Part shown: one piece after another, positions 3,548 to 14,862 of the stretch
How the letters are laid out: every line of letters begins with the position of its first letter
Numbering within the stretch: the first letter of the stretch is position 1
Source: a virus
DNA: 25,861 nucleotides
IMG/VR virus record: IMGVR_UViG_3300025120_000484
Location: 1 to 25,861 of that record
Strand: one strand, 5' to 3'
The notes under the pieces: model-generated
Database searches by the model: none
Told to the model about the DNA's origin: nothing
The model's input: the letters and a program-made list of their open reading frames with translations, nothing else
Program-made: the position numbers and the translations under genes

Positions 3548-3638
3548 ACTTAGAAAGATTTTTTTTAAATACGAGTTTCAAATTTGGACTGTATGGTTTT
3601 GGGGACCTATACTTTTATTTTTTTGGATAATAGCATGA
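3537..3638 (+). CDS. Small membrane protein, 33 aa
   Basis: A 33-codon frame bridging two genes: its ATG overlaps the end of the upstream gene by 11 bases and its stop forms an ATGA overlap with the primase start at 3635. The first 14 residues are basic (MRNKLRKIFFKYEF) and the rest is a single hydrophobic, Trp-rich segment (WTVWFWGPILLFFWIIA), so it should insert in the inner membrane with the N-terminus inside. The nested coupling on both sides argues for a real gene despite its size. No family recognised. Confidence 0.6.
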   Translation: MRNKLRKIFFKYEFQIWTVWFWGPILLFFWIIA

Positions 3639-5149
3639 GATTTAAAGAAATATTTCAAGGCATGCAAAGTGCCTACGGTCAATATGTTATTGGTGAACAA
3701 GCTACTAACGGTAACAAACAAGACGGTAAAGCTTTTATAAAAAGAAAACAAGTAACAGATGATTTGTGGCAAGATCATTTAGACGGTAAAGATCCTGCGC
3801 TAGGTATTATACCTATTAATGAAGAGAACAAATGTAAATGGGGTTGTATTGATGTAGACAAATACAACCTAGACCATAAAAAAATAATTGAAACTATTAG
3901 AAAGAATAACTTACCTTTAATATTATTTAGATCAAAGTCCGGGGGAGCACATATATTTTTATTTTGTAATACATTTATCTCAGCAGCTCTCATGCAATCT
4001 AAATTAAAACAAATAGCTGAACTACTAGGTTACATGGATTGTGAAATCTTTCCTAAACAAACAGAGGTTCTTGTAGAACGTGGTGATACAGGAAACTTTT
4101 TAAATCTACCTTACCACAATCACATGAAGGGATTAAGATATGCTTTTAACGATAATGGCACCGCTGCTACACTTGAAGAATTTTTTGAGCTCTATGATAT
4201 TTATGTTCAAGAAGAAATTGGTATTGATGAAATCAAAGTTGAAAAACCAAAACAAGAAGAAGTCTTCAAAGACGGACCACCTTGTTTAAATAAATTAGCT
4301 AACGATGGGTTTGGTGAGGGTGGTAGAAACAATGCTTTATTTAACATAGCTATGTTTTACAAACAGGCTGAACCAGATAAGTGGGAAGATTTAGTTGAAG
4401 ACGCTAATATAAATTACATGAGTCCACCTTTAAGATCTAGTGAAGTTCAACAACTTCTTAAATCAATAGGTAAAAAAGGTTATGATAAGTATAGGTGTAA
4501 ACAAGCGCCTATTAATTCTGTTTGTAATTCTGGTTTATGTAGACTTAAAAAATTTGGTGTAGGTTTTGATGAAGAAGAAATGCCACCGTTAAATGATTTA
4601 ACAAAGATTACTTCAGATCCTCCACAATGGTTTTTAAATGTAGAAGGAAAGAGATTAAAATTTACTACAGAACAATTACATAGTGCTCACATGTTTTCTA
4701 TAGCATGTATGTCTCAAGCTAGTTTGATTGTACCTATACCTAAATCAAATGATTGGAGAAGTCTTTTAAAAGAATTAATGAAGTCTATTCAAGAAATAGA
4801 ACCTATGGAATCCTTAAGTGCTGTCAATCAATTAGAAAATTTATTGTATGAGTTTACAGTAAACAGGGCACAAGCAAGAACAAAAGAAGACATACTGAAT
4901 AAAACACCGTGGACCGATGAGGGTTATACTTATTTTAAAATGGATGACTTTTATAATTGGTCAAAGAAAAACAATTGGGAACTTGATAAAACAAAGACAG
5001 GAAATTTAATGATGGAATTATCTTGTTACGAGGGTGAAGTAAGAAGTCTTAGTATCAAAGGTACTAATCCTAGAATAACTAAAATTAAATCTTTAAAAAT
5101 TATTAAACCAAGTGTTAGTGATAGGCCTTACAAAGAAACGAATTACTAA
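3635..5149 (+). CDS. Archaeo-eukaryotic-type (AEP) DNA primase, 504 aa
   Basis: Primes DNA synthesis for the phage replisome. Features seen: a CIDVDKY segment with the metal-binding D-x-D at residues 73 and 75, then the S-x-H motif in SKSGGAH (H106), both diagnostic of AEP primases, close to the TOTE-system type. Residues 228-245 contain GGRNNALFNIAMFYKQ, a helical region typical of primase C-terminal (PriCT-like) domains. Four cysteines at about 217, 288, 297 and 302 form a likely Zn or Fe-S site. The last ~190 residues look like extra helical/winged-helix domains. The ATG at 3635 overlaps the preceding stop (ATGA); an in-frame TTG upstream is inferior. The stop overlaps the helicase start by one base (TAATG). 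Confidence 0.88.
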   Translation: MRFKEIFQGMQSAYGQYVIGEQATNGNKQDGKAFIKRKQVTDDLWQDHLDGKDPALGIIPINEENKCKWGCIDVDKYNLDHKKIIETIRKNNLPLILFRSKSGGAHIFLFCNTFISAALMQSKLKQIAELLGYMDCEIFPKQTEVLVERGDTGNFLNLPYHNHMKGLRYAFNDNGTAATLEEFFELYDIYVQEEIGIDEIKVEKPKQEEVFKDGPPCLNKLANDGFGEGGRNNALFNIAMFYKQAEPDKWEDLVEDANINYMSPPLRSSEVQQLLKSIGKKGYDKYRCKQAPINSVCNSGLCRLKKFGVGFDEEEMPPLNDLTKITSDPPQWFLNVEGKRLKFTTEQLHSAHMFSIACMSQASLIVPIPKSNDWRSLLKELMKSIQEIEPMESLSAVNQLENLLYEFTVNRAQARTKEDILNKTPWTDEGYTYFKMDDFYNWSKKNNWELDKTKTGNLMMELSCYEGEVRSLSIKGTNPRITKIKSLKIIKPSVSDRPYKETNY

Positions 5150-6657
5150 TGAAAACAATTATCCTTGGTCCCCCCGGTACAGGAAAGACAACTACTTTAT
5201 TAGATTTAGTTGATCAGTTTATACAACAAGGTGTTCGACCAAAACAAATAGGATATTTTTCTTTTACAAAGAAGGCTGTTAATGAGGCTATCTCTAGAGC
5301 TTCAAACAAATTTAATTTAGACCCTAAAGAAGATTTAAAATTTTTTAGAACTCTTCATTCTTTTGCATTTAGATTACTAGGTACAAGTAAAGAACAAATG
5401 ATGAGTAATAGAGATTACTTAGAGTTTGGTAAGAAAAATGGTTTGATTATTAAAGGTACATCTTATTCAGAAGATGACGGTATCTTTAATTCTGATTGTG
5501 AAGAATTAAAAATTATAGAACGAGCAAGGATTAAAGGTATTTCTTTGGAAGAAGAATACGACATGAATCAACATCTTACAGACGTGGAGCGAGGAACGCT
5601 GATCTTGTTAGATCAAGAATTAAAAAAATATAAAAAAGAAAATGGCATGAAAGATTTTACAGATCTCATAGAAGATTTTATTGAACAAGGTAACACACCA
5701 CCGTTTAAAGTTTTGTTTATAGATGAGGCTCAAGATTTAAATAGACTACAATGGAAAATGGTTCAAAGCATATGGCAAAAATCAGAGAAAACTTATATTG
5801 CAGGAGATGATGATCAAGCAATATTTAAATGGGCAGGGGCTGACATAGATCACTTCATTGCATTAAAAGATGAAGTAGATGAAATTAAAACATTAAAACA
5901 ATCTTACAGAATACCTGGTGGACCTATACATGAACTGTCACAAAGAATAATTAAGAATGTAGAAAATAGATTTGATAAATCATATAAGTCAAAAGAAGAA
6001 CAAGGTATTTTAAAATATTATTCTGATGTAACTCAAGTAGATATGTCTCAAGGTGAATGGTTGGTTTTATCTACAGCACATCATTTTTTAAGTGATGTTA
6101 AAGAGCTGTGTGAATTACAAGGTTGGTACTATCAACATAAGAATAAAAATTCTGTAGACATAGGACTTTTACTTGCCATTAGTAATTGGGAAGCATGGAG
6201 AAAAGGTAGTGAATTCAATCACTTAGAGATAAAAAATATGTACGCTTATTTAGGTGAGAATATTATGCCGGGATATAGAGACGCTAAAACTTTGTTGAGT
6301 GATAAAAAATATAGTTTGAAAGATTGTATGAAAGATCACGGCCTACAAGTTGACAATGTTTGGTTTGAAGCTTTTGATAAATTAGATCCTGTCACAGAAA
6401 ATTATATTAGAAACATGAGAGCTAATGGTGAAAAAATAAATAGAACACCTAGAATATTATTATCAACAATACATGGAGCCAAAGGTGGTGAAGCTGACAA
6501 TGTTTTAATTATGTCGGACTTAACTATCAAAGCTGTAAAACATAAAGAAAAAAATCCAGACGACTTTCATAGATTGTTTTATGTTGCAGTGACTAGACCA
6601 AGAAAAGAATTACATATTGTAGATCCAAGAAATTATGAGAAGGCATATATATTATGA
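5149..6657 (+). CDS. UvrD/Rep-type superfamily 1 DNA helicase, 502 aa
   Basis: An ATP-driven 3'-5' DNA helicase, probably the replicative or recombination helicase partnered with the adjacent primase. All SF1 motifs are visible: Walker A GPPGTGKTT (7-15), motif Ia region FSFTKKAVNEA (37-47), DEAQD box (192-196), motif III GDDDQAIF (219-226), motif IV QSYR (251-254), motif V TIHGAKGGEADN (440-451) and motif VI VAVTRPRKEL (479-488). At 502 residues it is shorter than UvrD (about 720), so the 1B/2B accessory domains are reduced. It is translationally coupled to the primase (TAATG) and to the next gene (ATGA). Confidence 0.93.
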   Translation: MKTIILGPPGTGKTTTLLDLVDQFIQQGVRPKQIGYFSFTKKAVNEAISRASNKFNLDPKEDLKFFRTLHSFAFRLLGTSKEQMMSNRDYLEFGKKNGLIIKGTSYSEDDGIFNSDCEELKIIERARIKGISLEEEYDMNQHLTDVERGTLILLDQELKKYKKENGMKDFTDLIEDFIEQGNTPPFKVLFIDEAQDLNRLQWKMVQSIWQKSEKTYIAGDDDQAIFKWAGADIDHFIALKDEVDEIKTLKQSYRIPGGPIHELSQRIIKNVENRFDKSYKSKEEQGILKYYSDVTQVDMSQGEWLVLSTAHHFLSDVKELCELQGWYYQHKNKNSVDIGLLLAISNWEAWRKGSEFNHLEIKNMYAYLGENIMPGYRDAKTLLSDKKYSLKDCMKDHGLQVDNVWFEAFDKLDPVTENYIRNMRANGEKINRTPRILLSTIHGAKGGEADNVLIMSDLTIKAVKHKEKNPDDFHRLFYVAVTRPRKELHIVDPRNYEKAYIL

Positions 6658-12251: not shown

Positions 12252-12519
12252 AAAATCCGCAAAGGGAGCTCTAGGTGAGTTGACCGTGGCTATTGAATAC
12301 ATGAAAAAGGGATATTGGGTTGCCTTATCGGTTGACCCTCAATGTCCCTTTGATTTAGTTGTTGTTGATGACCAGGGGAGATGTCAGTTAATAGACTCTA
12401 AATGTAATTCTATTCGAACGACCGGGAAAAGAAAAGGAAGTCGGATTAATAGATTACTAAATAAGAAACAGAAAGAAATGGGAGTAAGATTAAAATATGT
12501 CGATTGCGATAAACAGTAA
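12244..12519 (+). CDS. PD-(D/E)XK-type nuclease, small, 91 aa
   Basis: Contains KGALGELTVAIEYMKKGYWV (Glu in the first helix), then CPFDLVVVDDQGRCQLIDSK. These give the ordered E, D and D-x-K catalytic residues of small PD-(D/E)XK endonucleases (the PDDEXK_5 / Holliday-junction-resolvase-like group). It probably cuts branched or foreign DNA. The start is uncertain: GTG at 12244, overlapping the preceding stop, is preferred to TTG at 12211. The 3' end overlaps the larger nuclease gene by 23 bases, suggesting joint expression. Confidence 0.7.
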   Translation: MVKKSAKGALGELTVAIEYMKKGYWVALSVDPQCPFDLVVVDDQGRCQLIDSKCNSIRTTGKRKGSRINRLLNKKQKEMGVRLKYVDCDKQ

Positions 12520-13168
12520 ATTCATCTATCCAAAAACTATTCGAGAAGCTATCTTAGGTCATAGGCATTACGCTGTGGGTGAAGAAAAACTTCCGAGTGT
12601 TACAACAATACTAGGTGAGACGAAAGATAAAACTTTTTTAAAGGAATGGAAGAAGAGAGTAGGGGAACAAGAAGCAGAGAAAATTAAGAACTCTGCCTCC
12701 ACTAGAGGTAGTGTAATGCATCATATTCTAGAAGAATATATCAAAGGTAATAAACATGTGGACTTGAGCTCTATCGGAAAAAGAGCAGGAGTTATGGCTG
12801 ATATTATTATTAGAAAAGGTTTATCGAAGGTAGATTCTGTTTATGGTATTGAGGCTGTCATGCATTATCCCGGTCTTTACGCAGGTTCTGCTGATTTAGT
12901 GGGAATACACGAGGGCCAAGACGCTATTATGGATTTCAAACAAACAAACAAACCGAAGCGAGAAGAGTGGATCGAGGATTATTTTCTACAGTTAGCTGCT
13001 TACGCTATGGCTCATGACTATGTTTATGGTACTCAGATCAACAAAGGTGTTGTTATGATGTGTAGTGTTGATAGCTACTACCAAGAATTTATTGTAGAGG
13101 GTGAGAAATTAAGATATTATAAGCACGAATTTTTAAGGAGACTAGATAAATACCATGGAACTAAGTAA
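12497..13168 (+). CDS. RecB/Cas4-like PD-(D/E)XK exonuclease, 223 aa
   Basis: Degrades or processes DNA ends, probably for phage recombination. Visible motifs: RGSVMHHILEE (70-80) with the conserved His, YAGSADLVG (128-136) with metal ligand D133, IMDFKQT (144-150) giving D146-x-K148, and the QLAAYA motif (Q165 to Y169) typical of the RecB nuclease family. Length fits phage exonucleases and MGME1-like enzymes. It overlaps genes on both sides and lies with a second nuclease upstream. Confidence 0.85.
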   Translation: MSIAINSKFIYPKTIREAILGHRHYAVGEEKLPSVTTILGETKDKTFLKEWKKRVGEQEAEKIKNSASTRGSVMHHILEEYIKGNKHVDLSSIGKRAGVMADIIIRKGLSKVDSVYGIEAVMHYPGLYAGSADLVGIHEGQDAIMDFKQTNKPKREEWIEDYFLQLAAYAMAHDYVYGTQINKGVVMMCSVDSYYQEFIVEGEKLRYYKHEFLRRLDKYHGTK

Positions 13169-13349: not shown

Positions 13350-13556
13350 TTGTTAAAATTTTTTTTAGTAGGGTGGATTTGCATAGGTCAAGGCGTTGAA
13401 CAGAAGTGTGTACGCATGGCTTCAGAGGTTATTCACGATAGTTATGAAGATTGTAACCAATATTTCAGCGTGGTTCGTGGAGAAATGCTTGATTTAATTG
13501 ACGTAAAGCTTCAATTTACGTGTGTCGAGGCCGGATTATTAGAAGAATACCTATAA
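13350..13556 (+). CDS. Small Cys-containing, probably exported protein, 68 aa
   Basis: Starts with TTG immediately after the previous TAA; no ATG is available before residue 23. The N-terminus, KFFLVGWICIGQG, resembles a signal peptide. The mature part has Cys at about 20, 35 and 57 that could form disulphides. No family recognised. The TAA stop lies inside the left arm of the 23-bp inverted repeat at 13551. The non-ATG start and weak ribosome site lower confidence. Confidence 0.5.
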   Translation: MLKFFLVGWICIGQGVEQKCVRMASEVIHDSYEDCNQYFSVVRGEMLDLIDVKLQFTCVEAGLLEEYL

Positions 13557-13776
13557 GGAATATTAGACCCCCTATGTGTAAAAAAATATTTTTACTAGGG
13601 TAGGGTGCGGTAATGGTGGTAAATGGCTAGAATGGTTGATAAATAAGGTTAAAACAGTCAAAAAGGCTTACCAGAGTAGTGGTAAGCACTGGTAAATCTC
13701 AAACTCATTAGCCGTATGGCAATCTAATTTTTTATTTTTATATTTAAACTTGAAGGGGGTTTAATATTCCTTATAG
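13551..13776 (+). ncRNA. Candidate structured RNA closed by a 23-bp inverted repeat
   Basis: Bases 13551-13573 and 13754-13776 are inverted copies: 22 of 23 positions are Watson-Crick and the other is a G-U pair in plus-strand RNA (13566 with 13761). The 180-base interior holds hairpins: GTAAAAA/TTTTTAC (13578-13584 with 13589-13595) flanked by CCCTA/TAGGG (13570-13574 with 13596-13600), and 13623-13630 with 13708-13715 (8 bp, two G-U). GCTTACC/GGTAAGC (13666-13672 with 13681-13687) competes with TTACCAG/CTGGTAA (13668-13674 with 13689-13695). The CCCCC of the left arm can pair with the local GGG runs or the right arm. The interior has no convincing coding frame. It overlaps the stop of the upstream gene. 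A transposon-like inverted-repeat element is the alternative. Confidence 0.55.
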
Positions 13777-13783
13777 TAAAAAT

Positions 13784-13846
13784 ATGGAAGATACTTGCCC
13801 TCTATGTAAGCTTGATATAGATGAATGTGAGTGCCTTGAAGGATAA
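13784..13846 (+). CDS. Tiny zinc-knuckle peptide, 20 aa
   Basis: A 20-codon frame, MEDTCPLCKLDIDECECLEG, with a CxxC and a CxC spaced like one zinc-binding site. It starts 8 bases after the right arm of the inverted repeat and ends two bases before the next ATG; its last codons contain the AAGGA ribosome site of the next gene, so it may also act as a leader peptide. No good ribosome site of its own is seen. Confidence 0.4.
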   Translation: MEDTCPLCKLDIDECECLEG

Positions 13847-13848
13847 AA

Positions 13849-14097
13849 ATGGATATAGTTAGAGTAGTTTGGTTAGATACTAATGAGTGTAGTCTATCTA
13901 CATGGCAAACTAAAGAGGAGCTATTAGAAAGTAAACCTTGTCAAATATCTTCACTAGGATATTTAATTAAGAAAGATAATAATACAATAACAATATCAGC
14001 AGACAAAGATGATTTCGATCAAGATGATTTATTTGGTAGATCTCAAGTAATTCCTTTGGGTGTTGTTTTAAGAATAGAGCACTTAAATTTAAAGTAG
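13849..14097 (+). CDS. Hypothetical protein, 82 aa
   Basis: Begins after AAGGA at 13838-13842. The beta-rich protein contains SSLGYLIKKDNNTITISADKD and GRSQVIPLGVVLRIEHL and reads as a small soluble domain. It looks like a conserved phage protein but I cannot assign a function. A terminator-like hairpin begins 12 bases after its stop, so it probably ends the transcript. Confidence 0.7.
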   Translation: MDIVRVVWLDTNECSLSTWQTKEELLESKPCQISSLGYLIKKDNNTITISADKDDFDQDDLFGRSQVIPLGVVLRIEHLNLK

Positions 14098-14158: not shown

Positions 14159-14335
14159 ATGTTTAACTTAACTAATAAATCGAAAGAATATCTATTAAAT
14201 ATATTTAATACTAAGAAAGAACCAGACGGAATAAAAGAATTTTGTAAGGCTGAGTATGGTAGTGATTGGTTGTTTGCTTATACAAGCTTTAAAACAGACG
14301 GTCGTTTCCCTAACACAACAAGAAGAAATATCTAA
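14159..14335 (+). CDS. Small hypothetical protein, 58 aa
   Basis: The ATG at 14159 is chosen over a TTG two codons earlier; neither has a good ribosome site. The protein has a basic, helical first half (NKSKEYLLNIFNTKKEP) and an aromatic second half (YGSDWLFAYTSFKTDGR). No family recognised. It lies behind a probable terminator and its last 4 bases overlap the end of the convergent small terminase gene. Confidence 0.45.
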   Translation: MFNLTNKSKEYLLNIFNTKKEPDGIKEFCKAEYGSDWLFAYTSFKTDGRFPNTTRRNI

Positions 14336-14862
14336 TCTGTAGCTTCTTCTAAAGGCTCTACTAGCTTGAGAGTTCTAGGTTTTTTAACTTTATCTTTCAT
14401 ATCTTCAAAGTCTCCGTCTTGAAGAAGTACTTTATTTTCTTCTATAATAGTTTGCATTCTTTGTTCTAGTTCTTTTTCTGTAAGATCTTCTAATTTACCA
14501 TGCTTGATTATCTTTTGTTCTATATATAATCCAGCAGCTTTACCTCTTGCGACCTCTGCATTAACGGCAGCAGACCAAGATTTTGCTTCAATAGCTTCTT
14601 GCCTGATCCTTGCTAATTCTGTTATATGTTTCTCATAAGTAATCTCATATTTCTTTTGCATTTCAGATCTAAGGTTATTTATGTATCTAACAACCAATGG
14701 AAATTTATTTGCATTTCTTAGTTCTGATGCTCTTACATGGCATGAGCCCTCTGCATATCCTGCCTCATACGCACATTCTGTAGGTGACATGCGACCTTCA
14801 TTAAATACTAATAACTCAGAAAATTTCTTTTGTTGTTCTGTTAATAATTTTGGTAATCCCAT
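14332..14862 (-). CDS. Terminase small subunit-like DNA-packaging protein, 176 aa
   Basis: Recognises phage DNA for packaging and loads the large subunit. The N-terminal LTEQQKKFSELLV (7-19), SPTECAYEAGYAEGS (26-40) and ASELRNANKFPLVVRYI (45-61) form the winged/helix-turn-helix domain typical of small terminases (Terminase_2/P27-like). A long helix follows (about 65-110), as in oligomerising TerS, then an acidic, disordered tail. It is on the minus strand at the end of a leftward gene block, while the large subunit is on the plus strand 4.7 kb away. A perfect palindrome, TCCCATATGGGA, covers the start codon. Confidence 0.8.
   Translation of the reverse strand: MGLPKLLTEQQKKFSELLVFNEGRMSPTECAYEAGYAEGSCHVRASELRNANKFPLVVRYINNLRSEMQKKYEITYEKHITELARIRQEAIEAKSWSAAVNAEVARGKAAGLYIEQKIIKHGKLEDLTEKELEQRMQTIIEENKVLLQDGDFEDMKDKVKKPRTLKLVEPLEEATD

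Follow-up and report, generated by a model that had tools for sequence, protein, structure and literature searches.

What does the noncoding element between the replication genes and the terminase genes of this phage do, and does it act as RNA or as DNA? The window (the whole stretch of viral DNA analysed here, 25,861 nucleotides) gave no relevant match in a direct DNA similarity search against known phages. Its family A DNA polymerase shares 67% sequence identity with that of phage 023Pt_psg01 and 56% with that of Pelagibacter phage HTVC027P, and we therefore assigned the window to the HTVC023P-type pelagiphages, the group reported to be most abundant among known pelagiphages. Open reading frames, PHROGs and Pfam together define a plus-strand replication cluster comprising an archaeo-eukaryotic-type (AEP) primase with a PriCT_1 domain (3584–5149), a UvrD-like helicase (5149–6657), the family A DNA polymerase and a PD-(D/E)XK exonuclease (12497–13168), followed by the minus-strand gene for the terminase small subunit (terS, 14332–14862) and, farther on, terL. 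The primase matches AEP-TOTE and PriCT_1 in Pfam, and its AlphaFold model matches a Prim-Pol fold; a fold search with the predicted structure of its C-terminal domain returned no significant match. The exonuclease gene upstream and terS downstream served as synteny anchors for the element, which lies about 8.4 kb from the primase gene (7–8.5 kb for the primase and UvrD genes together). Cumulative GC skew tracks gene direction in the window and was uninformative as an origin marker, and a search for tRNA and tmRNA genes found none.

The first-pass annotation had described a 23-nt inverted repeat enclosing a noncoding interior with mutually exclusive hairpins, and our analysis bears out each of these features. 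The left arm (CTATAAGGAATATTAGACCCCCT, 13551–13573) and the right arm (AGGGGGTTTAATATTCCTTATAG, 13754–13776), both given on the plus strand, pair over 23 nt, one of the pairs being G-U, and at 79% their complementarity extends to 38 nt. No ORF of at least 50 aa crosses the interior, and the upstream ORF (13350–13556) ends with its stop codon inside the left arm. Within the element, GCTTACC (13666–13672) can pair with GGTAAGC (13681–13687), and TTACCAG (13668–13674) with CTGGTAA (13689–13695); the competing hairpins are real. Nearer the right arm, a short G+C hairpin (GCCGTATGGC) is followed by an A/T tract (together 13711–13748, plus strand); this segment matches the place of a GCGCGCG box and T-tract in relatives and is a candidate melting region. 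The gap that separates the right arm of the window from the next gene (13849–14097) holds a 20-codon ORF encoding paired cysteines (MEDTCPLCKLDIDECECLEG, 13784–13846); in L010-type relatives, the counterpart of that next gene begins immediately after the right arm.

Homologues were gathered by searching with the exonuclease and TerS protein sequences, which led to loci that have the element between these genes. Dozens of relatives carry the element at this same place, and among 118 contigs retrieved solely by a triple GGTGTCG iteron pattern, 107 carry genes of this family, namely the exonuclease, terS or a neighbour. Pattern scans for the central TTGGTATTA motif and for the group D arms returned zero contigs and one contig, respectively. 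Depending on the group, the left arm reads CTATAAGGAATATTAGACCCCCT, TGTATAGTGGAATTCTGGAGCAAA, CTATAAGGGGAGATTTGGGTAAA or TGTATATGTATG, and the right arm is largely complementary in each. In an alignment of ten sequences, 94.7% of pair cells are paired, as against 39–41% when the partner is slid by one base. Fifteen of the 23 pairs change on both sides, a number reached by none of 500 shuffles; the structure was derived from the same ten sequences, so that the contrast is in part a consequence of the method; even so, the pairs that change on both sides are numerous. They fall on 13 of the 17 arm pairs and 2 of the 6 inner-hairpin pairs, indicating that the symmetry of the arms is maintained. 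The covarying arms with variable loops that had been predicted were thus found, the arms altering their sequence yet staying complementary. Read by eye, HTVC027P (L002) and GTGTCG-type elements keep the repeats described next and have no clear outer arms.

The element contains six iterons in a fixed order, namely inverted, direct-direct, inverted, direct-direct (← →→ ← →→), at offsets (in bases, counted from the left edge) of about 5, 63/72, 122 and 135/145. A degenerate inverted copy (AATACC, 13546–13551, minus strand; TTACC in L010 and TGTGCCA in group B) abuts the left arm. Direct iteron 1 (GCGGTAA, 13607–13613), whose position is conserved, and direct iteron 2 (GTGGTAA, 13616–13622), 9 bp after it, are followed by an inverted iteron (CTTACCA, 13667–13673, minus strand) that can form a hairpin with either of the next two direct copies, iterons 3 (GTGGTAA, 13679–13685) and 4 (CTGGTAA, 13689–13695, 10 bp after iteron 3); all direct copies are on the plus strand. 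Spacing of the direct copies is 8–10 bp, and mainly 11 bp in the GTGTCG class. The iteron sequence is TGGTAA in group A, GTGGTAG in group C, GTGGCAC in group B and L057, and GTGTCA or GTGTCG in further relatives, with order and spacing kept while the sequence shifts from TGGTAA through GTGGTAG to GTGGCAC. Many elements contain more iterons than any of 300 shuffles, and most relatives lie above shuffles; for the window itself the excess is modest, its count being reached by 17 of 300. Between groups, all copies change in concert, including copies that are unpaired in any single fold, and a shared recognising factor explains this better than one fold does. The mutually exclusive hairpins arise in turn because one inverted iteron faces several near-identical direct copies.

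Which protein tracks the iterons? Primase identity to the window is 58–61% within the GTGGYA class, 41% in a relative with GTGTCA iterons (L253) and 29% in HTVC027P, and no counterpart was detectable in the GTGTCG-iteron class. UvrD identity across the same classes is 65–72%, 46%, 32% and 25–28%. In the other classes, the exonuclease (49–59% identical to the window), TerS (52–58%) and TerL (about 70%) are without such a drop, and PolA identity falls to 46% only in the most divergent (GTGTCG) class. As judged from these protein identities, uncorrected for phylogeny, across four classes, iteron class follows the primase and UvrD-helicase genes and not those for the exonuclease, TerS or TerL. TerS was also considered as the iteron partner and rejected: its type is exchanged while iterons are unchanged (phages with an MW574966-type TerS, which shares 34% identity with that of the window, have the same iterons as phages with other types), and its 52–58% identity is kept when iterons change class. 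The genomes with the swapped, ~34%-identical terS type are MW574966, L040, L042, L044, L061 and L062, in which the iteron element and neighbours are of the usual kind. Two further observations concern the primase position. A GTGTCG-iteron phage encodes there a 481-residue protein (L277:565–2007) that has no Pfam or PHROG match and whose motifs, read by eye, suggest a different Prim-Pol. In L252/L253 (contig of L082), one in-frame TAA was reported in the matched primase region, yet a 500-codon ORF is present there.

We consider the element most likely to be a cis-acting DNA site and put at roughly 0.6 the probability that it is the origin of replication at which the phage's AEP primase acts, working like the pRN1, SaPI and NrS-1 systems. 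This reading rests on the conserved position and geometry of the element, the concerted change of its iterons, the covariation of its arms and the co-segregation of iteron class with the primase and helicase genes; from these we infer protein binding, melting, priming and origin activity. The short iterons in both orientations would serve as binding or start sites for the AEP primase, with which the UvrD-like helicase possibly acts at the iterons, and the neighbouring A/T tract would open. The inverted-repeat arms would delimit this site and, once it is unwound, may fold into a stem-loop. Most iteron types here start with GTG. It is conceivable, and we propose it only tentatively, that the iterons are start signals of the AEP primase on both strands, each consisting of GTG plus a class-specific extension and lying inside a stem-loop origin, and that their sequence is rewritten whenever the primase and helicase genes are exchanged while the geometry stays fixed.

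The first-pass annotation had instead favoured a switching or large structured RNA, that is, a structured noncoding RNA or cis-acting switch in which a plus-strand transcript forms the long closing stem and alternative inner hairpins. Folding is indeed strong: the plus strand of 13545–13782 folds at -70.8 kcal/mol (z -5.1; none of 200 shuffles does as well), covariation is clear in the closing stem and in one inner hairpin, and the co-oriented upstream genes make read-through plausible. However, the minus strand folds equally well (z -5.9), and since both strands far outperform their shuffles, folding does not pick a strand. An RNA helix accepts G-U pairs and not A-C; an inverted repeat in DNA favours neither. 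In the plus-strand arms, we counted 27 G-U versus 54 A-C in 39 distinct pairs and 41 versus 66 in 43 orientation-checked pairs, among sequences that are related and include a few poorly matched pairs, so that the counts are not a formal test; with A-C in excess, they show no wobble bias of the kind expected of a plus-strand RNA. Concerted change in copies left unpaired by any single fold and the elements without clear outer arms also speak against an RNA, and Rfam gave no credible match at gathering or relaxed thresholds. With G-U not in excess and the hairpins explained by the iterons, we regard this alternative as unlikely and do not think that the element is primarily a switching RNA.

A cos or pac site, at which packaging would start upon recognition by the terminase small subunit, would fit the location of terS within about 0.6 kb of the element, and cosB-type sites also contain repeated binding sites. 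Against it stand the two TerS comparisons given above, namely a different TerS type with the same iteron sequence and a TerS that stays 52–58% identical across a change of iteron class, as well as the contig breaks, which are few in the element and scattered rather than at one base; for the same reason, we rejected an attempt to place the physical genome ends from such breaks. We hold this reading to be improbable, and we rate just as low one in which the arms are two operators for transcription control, brought together by DNA looping, with the right arm overlapping the promoter of the next gene. A promoter-like TTGAAG-N16-TATAGT (13750–13777, plus strand) does overlap the right arm and is closely followed by a start codon at 13784 (8 bases past the arm), and relatives appear similarly laid out by eye, but the region has no more promoter-like sites than chance would give, and looping operators would leave the six iterons and their link to primase type unexplained. 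The other earlier alternative, a MITE-like mobile element, accounts for terminal inverted repeats with internal repeats and finds no further support: the window holds a single copy, the element keeps the same position across deep divergence in fixed synteny, and its edges (AATAC before CTATAAGG on the left, TAAAA after CCTTATAG on the right) contain no target duplication, as had been noted. We regard a mobile element as scarcely credible.

Related phages of 55–60% GC (L254 and L255), whose primase is related to that of the window (46–48%), have a similar noncoding element near terS, where GC content falls to the lowest value, or almost the lowest, of any window across 20 kb, a point in favour of an origin. 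It carries a different repeat set but the same GCGCGCGACC and T-tract, and outer inverted repeats recur, about 235–244 bases end to end. The window itself is AT-rich, and there the element does not stand out as a peak of AT content. Separately, a palindrome (TTAGAANNNTTCTAA) occurs in 41 of 89 exonuclease–terS intervals of GTGTCG-iteron phages (L262–L379; also L051 and L074–L083), with 199 occurrences in 2.65 Mb of partly redundant loci and none in the window; we take it to resemble the Irr/ICE iron-response box of alphaproteobacteria.

Having a defined 226-bp site and a candidate protein partner opens origin use and origin–primase co-evolution to direct tests, and replication modules in these phages could be told apart by a short DNA motif. 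How does the putative origin compare with those of known systems? Plasmid pRN1, likewise an AEP-primase replicon, requires a stem-loop conserved in structure and not in sequence (PMC4234260), much as the arms here keep their pairing despite sequence change, and its primase ORF904 starts at GTG (PMC8718748). Unlike the element, the pRN1 stem-loop is about 100 nt long, has no iterons and lies directly downstream of the rep gene; the SaPI origin, too, is next to its initiator gene, whereas the element is about 8.4 kb from the primase gene; moreover, the pRN1 replication protein contains an SF3 helicase where this phage has a separate UvrD-like helicase. Because an adjacent rep gene and an SF3 helicase are two defining features of pRN1, we liken the element to such origins and do not call it a member. 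In phage P4, origin repeats are recognised by the primase-helicase alpha protein via its winged-helix domain (PMC4234260), a comparable arrangement, although alpha carries a Toprim-type primase rather than an AEP primase. The SaPI and SCCmec initiators (Rep, Cch2) also work at iterons, in an intergenic site of short direct and inverted repeats that is associated with a primase-helicase module (PMC7581432); there, a Rep-type helicase whose gene adjoins the origin serves as initiator, and the SCCmec inverted repeats can be deleted without loss of binding. Finally, the AEP primases ORF904 and NrSPol initiate at GTG, GTGG/GTGA or TTTGGTTA (PMC8718748). NrSPol is itself the replicative polymerase, unlike the primase of this phage, which encodes a separate family A polymerase, but the GTGG/GTGA and TTTGGTTA motifs of this PrimPol from the deep-sea phage NrS-1 are close to the GTGGTAA/TGGTAA iterons found here.
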